From positions 1-20,397 of the IMG/VR virus record IMGVR_UViG_3300021963_000816: 20,397 nt of DNA, one strand, 5' to 3'. Made by a program: the position numbers and the translations under genes. Source of the stretch: a virus. Below, piece after piece: positions 1,712 through 20,397 of this stretch; position 1 is the stretch's first letter, and each line of letters starts with the position of its first letter. The notes below the pieces were generated by a model that worked only from the letters and a program-made list of their open reading frames with translations, was not told the origin of the DNA and ran no database searches.

Positions 1712-1850
1712 CGTTAAAGGTTTATTCAGTAATTTAAAACGTGTTGTTAAGACAAGAGACTCTAACAAGAATAAAAGAGTTTACGATAAAATAAGCAAGC
1801 TACGAAAACCATGGTGGCACTTTAGGAATAGATGGACAGAGACGAATTAA
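1698..1850 (+). CDS. Small highly basic protein (50 aa)
   Basis: The frame runs from ATG at 1698 to TAA at 1850. It overlaps the 49-aa gene by 14 bases and the TPR-glycosyltransferase gene by 19 bases. The product begins MIVYSVKGLFSNLKRVVK and ends with the cluster KPWWHFRNRW. It has fourteen Lys/Arg against three acidic residues, so net charge is about +11. Such proteins can bind nucleic acid or a membrane surface, but no family is recognised and no function is claimed. No clear Shine-Dalgarno sequence precedes it, so coupling to the upstream gene is the likely mode of translation. The composition and lack of alternative genes in this stretch favour reality; the double overlap is the main doubt. 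Confidence 0.5.
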   Translation: MIVYSVKGLFSNLKRVVKTRDSNKNKRVYDKISKLRKPWWHFRNRWTETN

Positions 1851-3160
1851 AGAACGTACAGTTAGCTATACATGACCTTATCACTAAGGAAAAGTATGAC
1901 TTGGCTATGCCACTTATTAATGAAGTGTTAATGATCTATCCGAATGATGCAGCGACATTAAACTTTGCTGGATACATTTGGTTAATGGGTGATAAACCTG
2001 CATTTGCATACCAGTACTTTCGTAGAGCATTACAAGAACAACCAGGTAACAAAGCATTATGGACTTCTCTAGGCCGTGCATGTCACGAAATGGATAACTT
2101 TGATGATGCTATTAAATACTTCTTAAAGTCAGCAGAATTAGACCCTAACTATGCTATGGCATACTCTAATGCTTCAGCATCATTAGTTCAAATGTCACGT
2201 TGGGAAGATGCAGAGAAAGCAGCTAAGATGGCTTTAGAATGTGACCCTAAAGAGATACACGCACAATTAAACCTAGCTCATAGTTACTTAGCTAAAGGAC
2301 AATGGGTAGAAGGCTGGAAAGAATGGGATAAGTCACTAGGTGGCAAGTTCCGTAAAGAATTAGTTTATGGTGATGAACCAAGATGGGACGGTTCTAAAGA
2401 CAAAACTATCGTTATCTATGGCGAACAAGGTTTAGGTGATGAGATATTCTATGCTTCATGTATTCCTGACGCTATTGCTATTAGCAAGAAAGTTTACATA
2501 GACTGTGATGAAAGACTAGAAACATTATTTAAACGCAGTTTTCCTAAAGCAGAAGTGCATGGCACTCGTAAACAAGACAATGTGGAGTGGTTAGATGGAC
2601 TTACTTTTGATGCAAGGTGTGGAATTGGTGGCCTACCCCAGTTTTTCAGAACAAACAGCAAGGCTTTTCCTGGGACTCCTTTTCTAGTACCTGATAGTGA
2701 GAAGGTAGACATGTGGAAGCACATGTTTAAGTCATGGAATAAAACAGTAATTGGTATCACAACTAAAGGCGGTACATTTAGAACTAACTCTAAAGGCCGT
2801 GAACTTACAGAAGAAGACTTACAACCACTATTAAAGCGTAAAGATATACAGTTAGTAAGCCTAGACTATAGCGTAGAACGCAAAATTGATGGCGTTAGAT
2901 ACTTTGAATTTGCAACAGACGCAAAAGACTATGACGAAACAGCATCTATTATAGCTGCATGTGATATGGTTTTAGGGGTAAACACTACAGCATTGCATTG
3001 TAGTGCTGCTATGGGCGTTAAAACATGGTGCTTAGTACCTAAATATCACCAATGGAGATACGGACAAGCAAGTATGCCATGGTATCGTTCTATGAGACTT
3101 ATCTACCAAGACGATAAAACATGGTCTGAAGTAGTAGAAAACGTAGCAAGTCAGTTATGA
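1832..3160 (+). CDS. TPR-repeat protein with C-terminal GT9-like glycosyltransferase domain
   Basis: The protein has 442 residues in two parts. Residues about 10-165 form four or so TPR helical pairs (for example the segments ending PNDAATLNFAGYIWLMGD, PGNKALWTSLGRACHEMDN and DPNYAMAYSNASASLVQM). Residues about 190-440 look like the GT-B fold of heptosyltransferase/GT9-type enzymes: GEQGLGDEIFYASCIPD (197-213) is the nucleotide-sugar side loop seen in TPR-GT fusions, and VNTTALHCSAAMGVKTWC (383-400) with HQWRYG (406-411) is the C-terminal sugar-donor motif. TPR plus GT-B is also the layout of protein O-GlcNAc transferases, so a protein acceptor is plausible, but donor and acceptor are unknown. 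The start has AGGA 6 bases upstream. The stop overlaps the methyltransferase start (ATGA). Codons in 2581-2745 are unusually rich in GAG, AAG, CAG, CCC and GGG. Confidence 0.82.
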   Translation: MDRDELKNVQLAIHDLITKEKYDLAMPLINEVLMIYPNDAATLNFAGYIWLMGDKPAFAYQYFRRALQEQPGNKALWTSLGRACHEMDNFDDAIKYFLKSAELDPNYAMAYSNASASLVQMSRWEDAEKAAKMALECDPKEIHAQLNLAHSYLAKGQWVEGWKEWDKSLGGKFRKELVYGDEPRWDGSKDKTIVIYGEQGLGDEIFYASCIPDAIAISKKVYIDCDERLETLFKRSFPKAEVHGTRKQDNVEWLDGLTFDARCGIGGLPQFFRTNSKAFPGTPFLVPDSEKVDMWKHMFKSWNKTVIGITTKGGTFRTNSKGRELTEEDLQPLLKRKDIQLVSLDYSVERKIDGVRYFEFATDAKDYDETASIIAACDMVLGVNTTALHCSAAMGVKTWCLVPKYHQWRYGQASMPWYRSMRLIYQDDKTWSEVVENVASQL

Positions 3161-3756
3161 AATTAGCAGGTAACACCTATTTACCAGATAGTGACCAATT
3201 CTTTGTAAACTATTTTAAATTAGGTGATGTATTTGAACGAAAGTCACTAGATATTGCAATAGAACATGTAAAGAAATGGGATGTTGCAGTAGATGGTGGC
3301 GCACATGTAGGTAGTTGGTCTAGGTTTCTGTGTGATAAATTCAATTTAGTCGCATCTTTTGAACCTAACCCTGATAACTTTGAATGTTTAGTAGCAAATA
3401 CTAAAAACAAAAACAATATTATATTGTCTAAGTTTGGTCTGTACGACTCTCATCAAGAATTTGCACTAGAAAGTGGTAATAACACAGGTTGTTGGCATTT
3501 ATCTGAAGGTAAAGGTATAAAAGTTATGCCTATGCCTGACTTCGGTGCATTAGACTTCTTAAAACTAGACGTAGAAGGTTTTGAACACAATGCTATTACA
3601 GGCATGCTAGACCAAATTAAACGTTATAGACCTGTTATTGTGATAGAAGAAAAGAACCTACCACATAAATTATTAAAATACGAAGCAAGACATATCTTAG
3701 AAAGCATAGGATATAAACAAGTAGGTCAAGCACACAAGGATATTATCTTTGCTTAA
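3157..3756 (+). CDS. FkbM-type SAM-dependent methyltransferase
   Basis: This 199-residue protein is predicted to transfer a methyl group from S-adenosylmethionine, most often to a sugar hydroxyl in this family. Motif I is AVDGGAHVGSWS (44-55), the acidic ribose-binding loop is FEPNPDN (68-74) and the family signature is FLKLDVEGFEHNAI (134-147), followed by RPVIVIEE. Together these are typical of FkbM enzymes. Length is near the minimum for the fold, with a short N-terminal region. Translation probably couples to the TPR-glycosyltransferase through the ATGA overlap, since no ribosome site precedes the ATG. Between two glycosyltransferases, O-methylation of a glycan is the simplest role. The acceptor is not visible from sequence. 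Confidence 0.85.
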   Translation: MKLAGNTYLPDSDQFFVNYFKLGDVFERKSLDIAIEHVKKWDVAVDGGAHVGSWSRFLCDKFNLVASFEPNPDNFECLVANTKNKNNIILSKFGLYDSHQEFALESGNNTGCWHLSEGKGIKVMPMPDFGALDFLKLDVEGFEHNAITGMLDQIKRYRPVIVIEEKNLPHKLLKYEARHILESIGYKQVGQAHKDIIFA

Positions 3757-4369
3757 CATTACTTTTCTACATGTAGGTAAAGATGCAACATTGCCTACTA
3801 AAATGGTAGCTTCTGTAAAAGAAGTTATGCCAAATGCAAATATCGTTCAACTTACAGATGAAAATACACCTATTATTAAGGGTGTAAATACAGTTATTCG
3901 TAAAAAATATAACGGTCTTATCATGTTATTTAGACTAGAACACCTAGCTTCACTCAGAGGCAATTGGATAACACTAGATACTGACATGATAATTAAAAAA
4001 GACTTATCTCATGTATTTGACCAAGACTTTGACGTAGCACTTACAAGACGTTATGGTGTCATCATGGATACGCATGGGAATGATTTAGTAAAGATCATGC
4101 CATATAACGCAGGTGTTATGTTTTCTAAGAACCATGAGTTTTGGAAAGACGCATTAGAAGCATTAAAGACATTTAAACAAGAAGCACATGAGTGGTATGG
4201 TGACCAATTAGCCATTAAATTCATATCAGATAAAAACCAATATAAAGTATTAGAACTTCCTTGTGATGAGTATAACTATACTCCAAAGGATAGAGAAGAA
4301 CGTAAAGATGTATATGTTTATCATTTCAAAGGTCCTCGTAAAGACTGGATGATAGACGGTAATTATTAA
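3749..4369 (+). CDS. GT-A glycosyltransferase with DXD motif
   Basis: The product has 206 residues. WITLDTDMIIKKDLSHVF (73-90) carries the DXD motif Asp77-Thr-Asp79, which binds the metal and the nucleotide-sugar phosphates. PYNAGVMFSKNHEFW (118-132), EWYGDQLAIKF (148-158) and VYHFKGPRK (190-198) match the acceptor-side and C-terminal His motifs of GT8/GT32-like enzymes. The TTG start at 3749 is preferred because AAGGA lies 8 bases before it and the sequence starts a beta strand (LNITFLHVG) at once; the next ATG would remove the first strand. It overlaps the methyltransferase by 8 bases. It is likely a cytoplasmic partner of the two preceding enzymes. Donor sugar and acceptor cannot be assigned. 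Confidence 0.83.
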   Translation: MLNITFLHVGKDATLPTKMVASVKEVMPNANIVQLTDENTPIIKGVNTVIRKKYNGLIMLFRLEHLASLRGNWITLDTDMIIKKDLSHVFDQDFDVALTRRYGVIMDTHGNDLVKIMPYNAGVMFSKNHEFWKDALEALKTFKQEAHEWYGDQLAIKFISDKNQYKVLELPCDEYNYTPKDREERKDVYVYHFKGPRKDWMIDGNY

Positions 4370-7357: not shown

Positions 7358-9871
7358 ATGTCATTATTGTCAAGACTAGCTATACAAGCCGCAAGAGCTT
7401 ATGGCGTTCTATCATCTCGTAGCACTAATGTAGCAGCAGACTATCTTGTTGTAGCTGGTGGTGGAGCTGGAGGCTTCTCTCAAGGCGGTGGCGGTGGTGC
7501 TGGTGGGTTACTTACCTCTACTGCAACATTATCTACTCTTACTACATATACAGTGACTGTAGGTGCTGGCGGTGCTGGCAATTCAACTGCTGATACTCCT
7601 GGTGGCAATGGAACAAACTCTGTTTTGTCAGGCACAGGTCTAACTACAATAACTTCAGTAGGTGGAGGCGGTGGCGGTGGTGGTAATAGAGCTGGTTTAA
7701 CAAGTGCAACCGTAGGTTCAAATGGTGGTTCAGGCGGTGGTGGCTCTGGAGTTTATAGTACCACTAAAGCTGGAGGAACAGGCACATCTGGTCAAGGTAA
7801 TGCTGGCGGCACAGGCGGTGAAGATGTAGCAAGTTCTGGTCCAGAACTAGGCGGCGGTGGCGGTGGATCTTCTGCTGTTGGTGGTAATTTTTCTACTGCT
7901 GGTTCAGGGTCTGCTGGTAATGGCGGAGCAGGTACAGCATCTTCTATTAGCGGTTCTTCTGTTACATACGCTGGCGGTGGTGGAGGAGGTATTAGGTCGG
8001 ATGCTACTAGTGTAGGTAGTGGTGGAGCTGGTGGCGGTGGTGCTGGTGCCACAGGAACATCTGCTGGAACTGCTGGAACTGCTAACACAGGTGGTGGTGG
8101 AGGTGGTGGCGGTGGTCAATTTGGAGGTGGCGGTGGTGCTGGTGGTGCTGGTGGTTCAGGCGTAGTCATCATATCTTACACATCTGCTACACCTAAATTC
8201 ACAGGTGGCACAGTTACTACTTCAGGTGGTAAACAAATTCATACATTCACAGCTTCAGGATACCTAGTCCCTGCTACAGCAGTTACAGCTAGTTATTTAG
8301 TAGTGGCTGGGGGTGGTGCTGGTGGTTATGTTACAGGTAATAATAGAGCAGCTGGAGGTGGTGGTGCAGGCGGTTATCAAACATCATCAATAACACTTTA
8401 CTATCCAGCTACATACACAGTTACTGTAGGCGCTGGAGGATCATCTACAACATCTAGCAACACTAATGGTTCTAATTCTGTTTTATCAGGAACAGGTATT
8501 ACAACTATCACCTCAACAGGAGGTGGATCTGGTGGATCTACTTTCCCAGATAAAAATGCAGCAAATGGTGGCTCTGGTGGTGGCGGTGGTTCAGGAACTG
8601 CTAATACAGGAGGCACAGGCACTTCAGGTCAAGGTAACAATGGCGGAAATGGTAGTGGTAATTTTAGTGGTGGCGGAGGTGGAGCTAGTGCGACAGGAAG
8701 TAATGCAAGCGGATCTGCTTCAGGAGCAGGCGGAGCAGGAACTGCATCATCTATAAGTGGTTCTAGCGTTACTTACGCAGGTGGTGGTGGAGGCGGTCAA
8801 TATAATGGATCAGTTGTAGGTGCAGGAGGTTCAGGTGGTGGCGGTGCAGGAACAGGATCAGCAACAGGCACAGCAGGAACAGCCAACACAGGTGGTGGCG
8901 GTGGTGGAACAGGACCATCTGGAACAGCAGATGTTTCTTTTGCAGGTGGAGCAGGCGGCTCTGGAATAGTTATCATCTCATACGCTGGATCACAACAATT
9001 TACAGGTGGGACTGTAACATCATCAGGTGGAAACACAATACATACATTTACTTCTAGTGGAAGTTTAACTGGTGCTTATTCTGTAGACTATTTAGTAGTT
9101 GCAGGTGGTGGAGGTGGTGCTGGTGCTGCAAATGGTGGTGGAGCTGGTGGCGCTGGTGGTTATCAAACTTCTTCTGTTTATATTAATTCAGGAAATACTT
9201 ATACAGTAACTGTTGGTAGTGGTGGAACAGGTGGGTCATCAGGAACTAATGGATCAGACTCAGTTTTATCAGGCACAGGAATTACAACAGTAACATCAGT
9301 TGGTGGCGGTAGAGCAAATAATAATGCAAACGGTAGTTTAGGAGGCTCAGGTGGTGGTGCTTCTTCTACTAACGGAACTACTTATACTGGTGGTGCAGGA
9401 ACTAGTGGACAAGGTAATGCTGGTGGAAATTCAGTATCAACAACTCCATTTGCTACAGGCGGTGGTGGTGGAGCTTCTGCAGTAGGTGCTAATGGAAGTG
9501 GCTCTCAGTCTGGTGCTGGTGGTAATGGATCTTCTTCATCTATTACTGGTAGCTCAGTAACATACGCTGGTGGTGGCGGTGGCGGTGCGACATCTCAAGG
9601 TTCAGCTAGAGGTACAGGTGGCACAGGCGGTGGTGGTGATGGAGGAACTAGTGGAAATAGTGGAGCAGCTGGTACTGTTAATTTAGGTGGCGGTGGTGGT
9701 GGAGGTAGTAATTCAAGTGGTCAAACTGGTGGTAATGGTGGTTCTGGTGTGGTAATATTATCTGTTCCTACTACTAAATATACAGGAATTACAACTGGTA
9801 GCCCAACTGTAACAACATCTGGAGCTAATACTATATTAAAATATACTGCCTCTGGCACTTACGTAGCTTAA
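7358..9871 (+). CDS. Glycine-rich tail adhesin with three domain repeats
   Basis: This 837-residue protein starts with an amphipathic segment (SLLSRLAIQAARAYGVLSSR) that may fix it to the virion. It then has three repeated glycine-rich domains beginning at about residues 28, 312 and 577, each with (D/S)YLVVAGGG. Each unit has TYTVTVG(A/S)GG, SVLSGTG(I/L)TT(I/V)TS, GTSGQGN(A/N)GG, GSSVTYAGGGGGG and a closing GG-VVIIS or similar strand. Linkers such as GGTVTTSGGKQIHTFTASGY separate the units. Runs of up to nine Gly fit a polyglycine-II type bundle, as known for the adhesin gp38 of phage S16. It most likely binds the host receptor with the loops between the Gly runs. There is no enzyme motif. 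The start has TAGGAA upstream. Confidence 0.8.
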   Translation: MSLLSRLAIQAARAYGVLSSRSTNVAADYLVVAGGGAGGFSQGGGGGAGGLLTSTATLSTLTTYTVTVGAGGAGNSTADTPGGNGTNSVLSGTGLTTITSVGGGGGGGGNRAGLTSATVGSNGGSGGGGSGVYSTTKAGGTGTSGQGNAGGTGGEDVASSGPELGGGGGGSSAVGGNFSTAGSGSAGNGGAGTASSISGSSVTYAGGGGGGIRSDATSVGSGGAGGGGAGATGTSAGTAGTANTGGGGGGGGGQFGGGGGAGGAGGSGVVIISYTSATPKFTGGTVTTSGGKQIHTFTASGYLVPATAVTASYLVVAGGGAGGYVTGNNRAAGGGGAGGYQTSSITLYYPATYTVTVGAGGSSTTSSNTNGSNSVLSGTGITTITSTGGGSGGSTFPDKNAANGGSGGGGGSGTANTGGTGTSGQGNNGGNGSGNFSGGGGGASATGSNASGSASGAGGAGTASSISGSSVTYAGGGGGGQYNGSVVGAGGSGGGGAGTGSATGTAGTANTGGGGGGTGPSGTADVSFAGGAGGSGIVIISYAGSQQFTGGTVTSSGGNTIHTFTSSGSLTGAYSVDYLVVAGGGGGAGAANGGGAGGAGGYQTSSVYINSGNTYTVTVGSGGTGGSSGTNGSDSVLSGTGITTVTSVGGGRANNNANGSLGGSGGGASSTNGTTYTGGAGTSGQGNAGGNSVSTTPFATGGGGGASAVGANGSGSQSGAGGNGSSSSITGSSVTYAGGGGGGATSQGSARGTGGTGGGGDGGTSGNSGAAGTVNLGGGGGGGSNSSGQTGGNGGSGVVILSVPTTKYTGITTGSPTVTTSGANTILKYTASGTYVA
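7439..9868 (+). repeat. Three tandem ~0.8-kb adhesin repeats
   Basis: Repeat starts are at 7439, 8291 and 9086. The peptide GSSVTYAGGGGGG occurs in each (7952-7990, 8759-8797 and 9548-9586) with different codons: its two Ser codons are TCT-TCT, TCT-AGC and AGC-TCA. Copies are 260-285 residues, with most length change in the Gly-rich loops. Confidence 0.85.
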
Positions 9872-18050: not shown

Positions 18051-18380
18051 ATGAAACAATTTCTAATGGCAATTACTTTAGTGTTGCTATGGTTGTTTTT
18101 ATATGACTATGCAGATGGAAAAGAATTGCCAAAGGAAATGTCAATGGCTACTGAAGCTGGTGAAGTAGTATTAACACTAGAAGAATGTACGTTTACTAAA
18201 ATGGGTTTACGTGGCTATCCTTATGCTGCGTATGCTACAGATAAAGGTAAACCTAACCATGAAGGTTGCTGGAAAAAAGAAGAAGTTAATCACATGGAGT
18301 CAGTATTAATTTACTTTCCAGAGATAGATGCTACAGCAGTATATAACCCACAACTATTTAAACCCCGTTCAACTATATGA
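18051..18380 (+). CDS. Secreted or membrane-anchored phage protein (109 aa)
   Basis: The N-terminus (MKQFLMAITLVLLWLFLYDY) is a signal peptide or membrane anchor: two charged-side residues, a hydrophobic core at 4-18 and a possible cut after ADG. The remaining part has two Cys (EECTFTK and EGCWKKEE) that could form a disulfide in the periplasm, with YPYAAYATDKGKPNHEGCW (about 57-75) conserved in similar proteins of other phages that I recall. The function is not known. The AGGAAAATGAA before the ATG supplies a ribosome site. Its place among lysis genes suggests a role at the envelope, such as a spanin partner or superinfection factor, but no lipobox is present. Confidence 0.62.
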   Translation: MKQFLMAITLVLLWLFLYDYADGKELPKEMSMATEAGEVVLTLEECTFTKMGLRGYPYAAYATDKGKPNHEGCWKKEEVNHMESVLIYFPEIDATAVYNPQLFKPRSTI

Positions 18381-18739
18381 CACATTGGATAAATGAGAAC
18401 AGCATTGCTGCTCTATACTCTGCACTTATAGAAATGAGTATATTTGATGAGTATAAACTTCCTCCAGCAAGTAAAGTTGACTTTGTTATTGTTAATGATA
18501 ATAGCATTTGTGGGCAATATGAGCCGCCTGAAGCTGGTGAACCTCATGTTATTACTATAAGTGTTGCAAGACATTCACATCTTTATCCTGTACTAATAAC
18601 ATTATGTCATGAAATAATACACATGATATGCTATTTAGAAGCACCTAAAACAGAAAAATATACGAGCCATAAAGGTTTATTCTTAAAACTACAGAAACAA
18701 GTAGCTAAGATGTATGGCTTTGACCCTAAAGAACTATAA
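18377..18739 (+). CDS. SprT-like zinc metalloprotein (HExxH)
   Basis: The product has 120 residues. The zinc motif HEIIH is at 78-82 within ITLCHEIIHMICYLEA. A third ligand can be the His at 98 in SHKGLFLKLQ, as in SprT/Spartan-like domains. The strand FVIVNDNSICGQYEP (36-50) and VITISVARH (58-66) complete the small mini-gluzincin pattern. The C-terminus is KMYGFDPKEL, short and without the Cys4 zinc ribbon of SprT. No signal peptide is present, so it acts in the cytoplasm unless carried by others. The start overlaps the previous stop (ATGA). Whether it is a protease for virion or host proteins, or has some lysis role, is not clear. Confidence 0.72.
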   Translation: MTHWINENSIAALYSALIEMSIFDEYKLPPASKVDFVIVNDNSICGQYEPPEAGEPHVITISVARHSHLYPVLITLCHEIIHMICYLEAPKTEKYTSHKGLFLKLQKQVAKMYGFDPKEL

Positions 18740-18750
18740 GGAGTATTATC

Positions 18751-19116
18751 ATAGACCCTATTACTATTTTATCTGCATTTGCACCAGTTGTTATGGACTT
18801 AGGCAAGTCTCTTATAAACCGTTTTGTAGCACCTAGTGAATTTAAACCTGCTACAATAGAACAATATGCTAAAATGAAAGAAATTGACTTAGAGTTTTTT
18901 AAAGTCATGAATGAAGCAGGAAGTGGTAACCCATCTTATCCATGGGTAGAAGCCATTGCAAGACTTATGAGACCTGCTATTGGCCTGATTGTATTAGCAA
19001 CATGGGCAACTATGCACCTACAAGGTATCGCAACACAAGAAGTAGATAACTTTGCTAGTGCGGTTGGTTTCTATCTCTTTGGGGAACGTAGTTTATTCTA
19101 CATTAAAAAGAAATGA
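18751..19116 (+). CDS. Holin-like 3TM protein (probable ATA start)
   Basis: The reading frame has AAGGAG at 18738-18743, seven bases before ATA 18751; no ATG/GTG/TTG stands in this place. From ATA the product is (M)DPITILSAFAPVVMDLGKSL and so on, 121 residues, which is the usual N-terminal hydrophobic helix of phage 3TM holins. The first ATG is 18793 (Met15), with no ribosome site, and would remove most of this helix. Later parts are PWVEAIARLMRPAIGLIVLATWATMHL (64-90; here written in pieces: PWVEAIARLMRP then AIGLIVLATWATMHL) and FASAVGFYLFGERSLFYI. It should make the inner-membrane lesion that starts lysis. It overlaps the next gene by 4 bases. Confidence 0.7.
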   Translation: MDPITILSAFAPVVMDLGKSLINRFVAPSEFKPATIEQYAKMKEIDLEFFKVMNEAGSGNPSYPWVEAIARLMRPAIGLIVLATWATMHLQGIATQEVDNFASAVGFYLFGERSLFYIKKK

Positions 19117-19271
19117 TCGTATTAAACATACTAAACTTTATTGGTTTAGCTATACTTAAATTATTAGTTGTTTCATTGCTATTCGTAGCCATGGGCTTCT
19201 CGATCTTATTCATGTACGCCATGCAATATTTAACCCAAGCACTTAACTACATAGACAACAATGTTAATTGA
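19113..19271 (+). CDS. Small membrane protein (52 aa)
   Basis: ATG 19113 lies in an ATGA overlap with the holin stop, and the frame ends at TGA 19271, eleven bases into the next gene. The product (MIVLNILNFIGLAILKLLVV then SLLFVAMGFSILFMYAMQYL and TQALNYIDNNVN) is nearly all hydrophobic from 2 to 40 and should form one long or two short membrane helices. No family is recognised. Being coupled to the holin, it may be a second holin subunit, antiholin or pinholin-like protein. Without it, 19117-19260 would be empty. Confidence 0.62.
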   Translation: MIVLNILNFIGLAILKLLVVSLLFVAMGFSILFMYAMQYLTQALNYIDNNVN

Positions 19272-19650
19272 AGTAAAACGGTTTGAATTCAAAGACACAC
19301 ATACAGTAGGTAAGATGTATGTAGATGGTATATATGAATGTTATACACTAGAGGATGTAGTTAGAAATGGCTCTAAAGTTATAGGCAAGACAGCTATACC
19401 TACCGGTGAATACAAAGTCATTATAGATAGATCTGTACGCTTTAAACAAGATATGCCACATATACTAGACGTGCCTAACTTTACAGGCATACGTATTCAT
19501 GCTGGCAATACTTCAGCACATACAGACGGATGTATATTACTTGGTACAACATGGACAGGTGGAGACTTTATTGGTAACTCTAAGTTAGCATATAACAAGT
19601 TCTTTAAGAAGTTACAGCAAGCTAAAAAAGCTACCATTAAGATATGCTAG
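19261..19650 (+). CDS. DUF5675-like protein, possible cell-wall enzyme
   Basis: The product has 129 residues. The core IPTGEYKVIIDRSVRFKQDM (47-66), HILDVPNFTGIRIHAGNTSA (67-86) and HTDGCILLG (87-95) is typical of the DUF5675 family. His80 and Cys91 are spaced and placed like the His and Cys of L,D-transpeptidase (YkuD) active sites, so a reaction on peptidoglycan is possible, though the family has not been shown by experiment to do this as far as I know. It starts with strand MLIEVKRFEF and ends IKIC with no signal peptide; holin would be needed for it to reach the wall. Its position after the holin makes it the best candidate for the missing endolysin. The start is within the upstream gene end. 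Confidence 0.72.
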   Translation: MLIEVKRFEFKDTHTVGKMYVDGIYECYTLEDVVRNGSKVIGKTAIPTGEYKVIIDRSVRFKQDMPHILDVPNFTGIRIHAGNTSAHTDGCILLGTTWTGGDFIGNSKLAYNKFFKKLQQAKKATIKIC

Positions 19651-19760: not shown

Positions 19761-20397
19761 TTGAAATATAGATCAGTCTTAGTCATATCTGACATGCACA
19801 TCCCTTATCACCATCCTGACGCATTTGCATTTTTAAAAGCGTTAAAAAAACAATTTAAGTTTGACCATGTAGTAAATATAGGTGATGAATTAGATCATCA
19901 TGCTATATCTATGCACGAACATAACCCAGACTTATATTCTGCCGGACATGAATTAGAGCAGTCTAAAAAGTATGTTCAAGAATTAGAAAAGATATTTCCT
20001 AAGATGACATTGGTACATAGCAACCATAGCTCATTAGTATACAGACGTGCTTTAAAATATGGCATGCCTAAAGGATACCTAAAAGACTATAACGACTTTT
20101 TAGGGGTGGGTAAGGGCTGGAATTGGGTGGATGACCACACAATAACATTAAGTGATAACTCAAGGTGTTTCTTTACTCATGGCCTCTCTGCAGACGTTTT
20201 AAAGGTAGCCCAGCAGTATGGAATGAATACCGTGCAGGGCCACTACCATACCAAGTTTAGTATCGGATACTACAGTAACCCAGATGCACTTATTTGGGGG
20301 ATGCAAGTAGGTTGTTTAATACATCAAAAGTCTATGGCATTTGACTATGCTAAGAATTTTAAAAGCAGGTTCATTGTAGGCTGCGGTGTAATTGTAA
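19761..20397 (+). CDS. Calcineurin-like metallophosphoesterase (3' truncated)
   Basis: The visible 212 codons start at TTG 19761, five or so bases after AGGAGAG (19750-19756); the sequence starts the first beta strand directly (KYRSVLVISDMHIPYHHPDA), so no later start fits. Metal-binding motifs are DMH (11-13), GDELD (41-45), NH in SNHS (88-89), THG with His140, and GHYH (160-163): the full set of a calcineurin-type two-metal hydrolase. The third motif is SNHS in place of the more usual GNHD, which occurs in a phage subgroup I recall. The substrate is unknown; phosphodiester or nucleotide hydrolysis is likely. The gene runs off the window end. Codons in 20095-20330 become rich in GGG, GTG, CAG, AAG and ACC. 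Confidence 0.8.
   Translation, partial: MKYRSVLVISDMHIPYHHPDAFAFLKALKKQFKFDHVVNIGDELDHHAISMHEHNPDLYSAGHELEQSKKYVQELEKIFPKMTLVHSNHSSLVYRRALKYGMPKGYLKDYNDFLGVGKGWNWVDDHTITLSDNSRCFFTHGLSADVLKVAQQYGMNTVQGHYHTKFSIGYYSNPDALIWGMQVGCLIHQKSMAFDYAKNFKSRFIVGCGVIV

Follow-up and report, generated by a model that had tools for sequence, protein, structure and literature searches.

A putative ATA start codon behind a strong ribosome-binding site is kept in dozens of relatives of a phage gene

Does a phage gene with a strong ribosome-binding site and ATA at its start position begin at that codon? The question arises from the gene for a 121-residue protein in the window, that is, the whole stretch of DNA analyzed, which is an entire virus record of 20,397 bases. 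The preliminary description of this DNA took ATA either for a true rare start that keeps the synthesis of a holin low or for an ATG misread in sequencing or assembly. Its account of the site itself was exact: seven bases (TATTATC) separate AAGGAG (18738 to 18743) from ATA (18751 to 18753), and the first standard start lies 42 bases on, with no purine-rich site seen before it by eye. The codons after ATA read GAC CCT ATT ACT ATT TTA (IDPITILSAFAPVV), and the stop codon occupies positions 19114 to 19116. No ATG, GTG, TTG or CTG is present in the 21 bases between the in-frame TAA upstream and ATA. The features of the site and its surroundings are collected in Table 1.

TABLE 1 Features at and around the proposed ATA start, in window positions
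Feature	Position	Strand	Remark
Upstream gene, weakly SprT-like	18377..18739	+	Pfam E 0.0056, under the curated cut-off
In-frame TAA closing the ATA frame upstream	18727..18729	+	
Shine-Dalgarno sequence TAAGGAG	18737..18743	+	Overlaps the upstream gene's TAA stop
ATC directly before ATA, rival start	18748..18750	+	
ATA, proposed start codon	18751..18753	+	Aligns with the ATG/GTG starts of other copies
Gene for the 121-aa protein, putative holin	18751..19116	+	Stop codon included
First downstream standard start, ATG	18793..18795	+	Codon 15 of the AUA gene
Gene for a 52-aa strongly hydrophobic protein	19113..19271	+	Its ATG shares bases with the AUA gene's stop (ATGA)
Gene for a DUF5675 protein	19261..19650	+	E 1.5e-33

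IMG/VR was searched for relatives of the gene using two protein sequences, one alignment and DNA patterns as queries. Among the matches listed, 319 records with a match gave 182 copies that are distinct over positions −60 to +330; these are no census, one motif scan having been loose and several searches having kept the best 80 loci each. The codon count leaves out copies with under 30 bases of sequence upstream of the gene. The term AUH denotes ATA, ATC or ATT at the start position without a preceding ATG. A full-length set of 174 copies leaves out partial copies, L005 and L311 (GTG before TTT); in the L005:3001 copy, the N terminus before ILSAFAPVV is swapped for an unrelated sequence. No relatives in bacterial genomes were present among 42 candidate stretches. 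Comparison with homologues at the start codon, which had been proposed as a check, shows that ATA recurs in 64 of the 182 distinct copies listed, from many metagenome contigs, next to ATG in 98, ATC in 8, ATT in 6, GTG in 4 and other codons in 2. Five of the six ATT codons are second codons after ATG (Met-Ile-Asp), which leaves 73 AUH copies. The ATA copies L002, L003 and L004 encode a protein identical to that of the window, and others among the AUH copies show many differences.

The reading frames around the codon narrow down where translation could otherwise begin. An upstream stretch of 21 bases that is closed and holds no canonical start is found in 35 of the 73 AUH copies (27 ATA, 7 ATC and 1 ATT), the window included. 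A further arrangement occurs in 34 ATA copies, where the spacer is 6 bases, the frame is open for 45 bases and an in-frame ATG (17 copies) or TTG (17 copies) lies 36 bases upstream; this codon is probably unused, since the copies with a 7-base spacer, the window among them, have no counterpart. In-frame canonical codons also lie upstream in L235, L300 and L313, and L289 has none within 78 bases. Downstream, 60 of 72 AUH copies reach their first canonical start at codon 42; it comes at codon 6 in seven, at codon 15 in four and at codon 33 in one, the one other AUH copy being too short to reveal it. An AUH codon without a usable canonical start is thus found in the window and 34 other copies.

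The codons that follow are under purifying selection. In the 64 AUH copies with TAAGGAG, a set picked as AUH and thus free of ATG starts by construction, pN/pS is 0.12 over codons 2 to 41, 0.20 over codons 2 to 14 and 0.26 over codons 43 to 115. Synonymous divergence is large (pS as high as 0.74 among ATA copies, and 0.96 when ATC copies are compared with ATA copies), and the mean parsimony changes per site in codons 2 to 41 are 0.7, 0.2 and 5.2 at positions 1, 2 and 3. The AUH start is conserved over these diverged relatives, yet 102 of the 174 full-length copies are canonical. The constancy of ATA is by itself weak evidence, as the internal codon 36 is equally constant (ATA in 56, ATT in 8). 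Given the recurrence of ATA in 64 copies, the selection after it and the lack of a usable standard start in most such copies, the proposal that ATA is a true rare start is strongly supported, and comparison of the relatives indicates that the predicted ATA start behind a strong ribosome site is a real feature, kept in dozens of them.

Two start-codon figures are free of that selection by codon: a count of copies with the leader motif (72 copies) and a count of full-length copies with TAAGGAG within 20 bases of the start (70 copies). In the first, the leader TAAGGAG-N3-5-ATC-ATN-GAYCC in the family of the window gene has A at the variable base in 63 copies, C in 8, T in 1 and G in none. The second comprises 64 AUH copies and 6 with ATG (L241, L258, L264 and L284) or GTG (L204 and L275), and these six have other leaders, with no ATC before the start. 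Across the full-length copies, a Shine-Dalgarno match of 7 nucleotides to the anti-SD complement is present in 64 of 67 AUH copies, and one of at least 7 nucleotides in 8 of 102 canonical copies. Conversely, a one-base overlap with the upstream stop (TAATG or TGATG) occurs in 74 of the 102 canonical copies versus 0 of the 67 AUH copies. Behind the SprT-like gene, ATG copies read CCTAAGGAACTATAATG (AAG in 7 of 7), and ATA copies read CCTAAAGAA...TAAGGAG...ATA (AAA in 55 of 56). The gene is therefore coupled by AUG to its neighbor or else combines a weak codon with a strong ribosome site of its own, a rule that is not absolute. On the gene tree, the distribution of AUH and canonical starts requires 12 changes by parsimony, which is an upper bound given the short length of the gene and the chance of recombination.

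The weak codon is particular to this gene within its surroundings. In distinct copies of the neighboring genes, ATG is the start in 47 of 47 for the 52-residue protein, 53 of 53 for the DUF5675 protein, 23 of 24 for a 109-residue protein (GTG in one), and 20 of 20 and 17 of 17 for two more. In the SprT-like, 68-residue and phosphoesterase genes and one tail-region family, other codons are aligned with the start, and reading of the alignments places ATG one or a few codons away. The phosphoesterase gene (19761 to 20397) has a TTG start behind GGAG, and the start in 16 copies is TTG in 8 and ATG in 4. A scan of the window and two related records for a strong Shine-Dalgarno sequence before a long AUH frame without a neighboring canonical start retrieved only the present gene, in the window and in G002; the G003 copy was not flagged because of an upstream in-frame codon. 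The upstream gene of L258 passes the curated SprT-like cut-off. RNA structure hiding the start was considered and rejected, as folding over the start is no greater than in shuffled sequences (z of +1.0 and +1.6). A promoter candidate at 18720 to 18749 (TTGACC-18-TATTAT) is uninformative, since promoter-like sites are fewer (7) than expected from shuffles (11.2). No tRNA genes were detected in the window or two related records, and no IF3_C domain in four related records. Elsewhere in the window, the region from the capsid to the tail genes holds three genes (1832 to 4369) that look by eye like TPR, FkbM-type methyltransferase and glycosyltransferase genes, and positions 7358 to 9871 encode a very glycine-rich protein of 837 residues with three similar stretches, possibly a tail fiber (by eye).

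Outside the family, the leader motif has G at the variable base in 16, A in 11, C in 3 and T in 2 of the matches listed; the patterns required GAYCC after the codon, so this sampling is biased to Asp-Pro starts. Three of the AUH matches are divergent or truncated family members (L444 with ATC, L459 with ATA, and L268). Among the 13 remaining, five have no upstream in-frame canonical start (L430, L433, L439, L447 and L458), and the other eight lie within longer frames or open very short ones and are uninformative. A scan for a strong Shine-Dalgarno sequence before a long frame without a canonical start, again outside the family, gave 9 rows with ATA, ATC or ATT (L155, L430, L433, L447 and L458) and 19 rows with 15 other non-start codons; because of the latter, a single frame of this kind is no evidence alone.

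Proteins of the L433 type belong to phrog_32327 (E 1.8e-10) and have a C-terminal hydrophobic segment, as judged by eye. Six named Roseobacter phages were added to the sample of this family; L516 and L552 were too short, and L155, a distant member with ATT, fell under the cut. Its other AUH loci are L433, L473 to L475, L478 to L482 and L493. The 27 distinct copies listed have ATA in 9, ATG in 6, GTG in 2 and ATG one codon earlier in 10, and ATA aligns with the position at which the genes of Roseobacter phages CRP-603, CRP-9, CRP-4 and CRP-1 have ATG or GTG. The frame of the ATA copies is open for merely 3 to 5 codons upstream. A third case is L430:5149-5556, on a contig shared with L494, which encodes a true GTA_holin_3TM protein (Pfam E 1.1e-12). 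Its start is ATC, preceded by TAAGGAGTAATATC, and codon 35 is the first canonical one; in a sample of 77 distinct copies listed, 75 have ATG, one has ATG-ATA (L567) and L430 alone is AUH. L439:6422-6655, on the minus strand, encodes a protein resembling a tail assembly chaperone (phrog_1180, E 1e-32); it apparently begins at ATC, preceded by TTAAGGAGG, has its first canonical codon at position 48 and is a single case. The trait, as read from these sequences, recurs in a second phage family and in one Pfam-confirmed 3TM holin.

The residues after ATA had been described as the expected N terminus of a holin. This was not borne out by family searches, in which none of the holin families in Pfam, PHROGs and NCBIfam matched the 121-residue protein; the PF11351 GTA_holin_3TM profile gave no match, and a profile comparison was weak (probability 4%, E 0.011). 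In that comparison, a W...RP stretch and an FG.R.L end align weakly with GTA_holin_3TM. The most hydrophobic stretches are at about residues 3 to 22 and 64 to 95, and the best 19-residue Kyte-Doolittle average, 1.57, is borderline for membrane helices, for which the customary cut-off is 1.6. The AlphaFold model is all-helical and of low confidence (mean pLDDT of 55.7), too poor for a fold search. An M15 peptidase, a common phage endolysin type, is encoded upstream of the gene in five of nine scanned neighbors (L358, L189, L353, L245 and L373), though not in the window. In Methylophilales phage MEP301, GTA_holin_3TM precedes an M15 peptidase and a phosphodiesterase and so has a position similar to the one that the 121-residue protein has in the window. 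A hypothetical protein of Vibrio phage D526 (OZ195944), with 27.7% identity over 96% of the protein, is encoded directly downstream of an annotated endolysin and, unlike the window gene, starts with ATG. The 121-residue protein is probably a holin, this being its likeliest role in spite of the missing family match.

The codons AUU, AUC and AUA are reported to be discriminated against by IF3, and AUG, GUG and UUG are not (PMC4611024). With an extended Shine-Dalgarno sequence, AUA and AUU starts of Staphylococcus aureus are described as giving about 10% of the output of AUG, and ccpN up to 30% in rich medium (PMC13009471). In one survey, a change from AUG to AUU was recorded once in 61,358 ancestral starts (PMC5622118). 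By analogy, the TAAGGAG site of the window would position the 30S subunit at ATA 18751, where the initiator tRNA (anticodon CAU) would mispair at the third base. IF3 would discriminate against AUA as against AUC and AUU, so that binding would be frequent and most initiation attempts would fail, and the output of the gene would be low and IF3-dependent. Selection would then retain the weak codon over AUG, as the product is probably a holin, which would be harmful if made early. It is reasonably probable that the weak ATA start is kept by selection and limits translation, and ATA likely keeps synthesis low, as the preliminary description had suggested. We infer low output, IF3 dependence, holin function and an effect on lysis timing as parts of this best explanation.

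A weak codon might also simply be tolerated without any regulatory role, with the strong Shine-Dalgarno sequence compensating so that output equals that of the ATG copies. Non-AUG starts in general are reported to accompany stronger Shine-Dalgarno sequences (PMC5622118), which fits such compensation, and the six TAAGGAG copies with ATG or GTG show that a strong site with a strong codon is viable. Against it, a single step would give AUG, and yet none of the 72 copies with the TAAGGAG-N3-5-ATC leader has it, although codon 6 does show the step from ATA to ATG in 6 of 64 copies, and the trait is also found in phrog_32327. Mere tolerance is conceivable but doubtful, and selective retention of a limiting ATA start is the preferred reading.

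The start could instead be the ATC at 18748, with ATA as codon 2 (Ile), in which A, C and T at the third base would be synonymous variants. This ATC is invariant, with 0 changes, across all 64 TAAGGAG-bearing AUH copies, which stand behind two different upstream genes, while the third base of the next codon varies, and its invariance is unexplained if the start is at 18751. Moreover, five relatives start ATG-ATT-GAC (Met-Ile-Asp-Pro), as an ATC start would read. However, in the ATA copies L289, L300 and L313, which stand in a third gene context, GCT or TCT replaces ATC and ATA shares bases with the TAG that ends the upstream gene; in two of them, L300 and L313, an ATG or GTG lies in frame 27 bases upstream, which weakens their use against an ATC start. 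In five ATG copies that read ATC-ATG, ATC is part of the leader. The codon before ATA also varies in the nine phrog_32327 copies (ATC in 3, ACC in 3, and GCC, ACT and ATT in 1 each), and L155 has CAA before ATT. Spacing speaks for ATA as well: over all loci, AAGGA is separated from ATG by 4 bases in 4, 5 in 12, 6 in 45, 7 in 23 and 8 in 17, so that the distance to ATA, 7 to 8 bases, is inside the local peak of 6 to 8, whereas that to ATC, 4 to 5 bases, is short. A start at ATC is accordingly unlikely, and ATA at 18751 is retained as the proposed start.

Translation that begins only at a downstream standard codon is very improbable: such a codon is present in the window, at 18793, but codon 15 is not conserved as a start among the AUH copies, most of which have their first canonical start at codon 42 (60 of 72), and codons 2 to 14 are themselves under selection. 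Expression by frameshifting from the upstream gene into a fusion protein, the upstream frame stopping (18737 to 18739) just short of ATA, has even less to commend it and was rejected, because the 65 ATA copies have spacers of 6 bases (37 copies) or 7 bases (28 copies), which change the frame of ATA with respect to the stop before it, require different shifts and exclude a single mechanism for all copies, and because AUH copies also occur behind an M15 peptidase gene (L358). The error for ATG is next to impossible and can be set aside, given 64 distinct ATA copies, further copies with ATC and ATT, and three with ATA and a protein identical to that of the window.

AUH starts under IF3 discrimination are already known, and their conservation in phages, for which there are at least two families here, appears new as far as searches show; no phage example was found among the search results listed from the open-licence full-text literature. 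The start of infC is given as ATT in Escherichia coli and ATC in Streptomyces (PMC5472188), and S. aureus infC and ccpN are described as having an AUA start with an extended Shine-Dalgarno sequence (PMC13009471). In these accounts, infC and S. aureus ccpN and cvfC1 have AUH behind a strong Shine-Dalgarno sequence (PMC5472188, PMC13009471), as the window gene does, and in the infC type, as here, the third base varies among A, C and U between lineages. The window gene probably belongs to a phage lysis region, whereas infC and ccpN encode a translation factor and a regulator, and IF3 control is here a proposal. Unlike the infC type, it has many relatives with a plain ATG and another leader. In Streptomyces sigR, a noncanonical codon is reported to limit a product that is harmful in excess (PMC5472188), and the same is proposed here; sigR has a GTC start with demonstrated IF3 repression in that report, whereas the window gene has an AUH start with a proposed role of IF3. 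IF3 overproduction is reported to reduce re-initiation and to impair M13 propagation (PMC2268962).

The finding bears on annotation and on phage biology. Gene finders limited to ATG, GTG and TTG would trim most AUH copies to codon 42 or miss them, and the phrog_32327 ATA copies would likewise be trimmed to codon 30 or 33. A broader proposal, that several unrelated families of the phage lysis region repeatedly took AUA, AUC or AUU starts and that the output of lysis proteins is paced by host IF3, is tentative and unlikely to hold; if true, lysis timing would be tied to the translation state of the host, much as infC makes the supply of IF3 depend on IF3. Should the weak start prove regulatory, ATA/ATG would provide a one-base switch for testing initiation fidelity against lysis time, and start-codon control of the IF3 type would reach from a few bacterial genes to phages.
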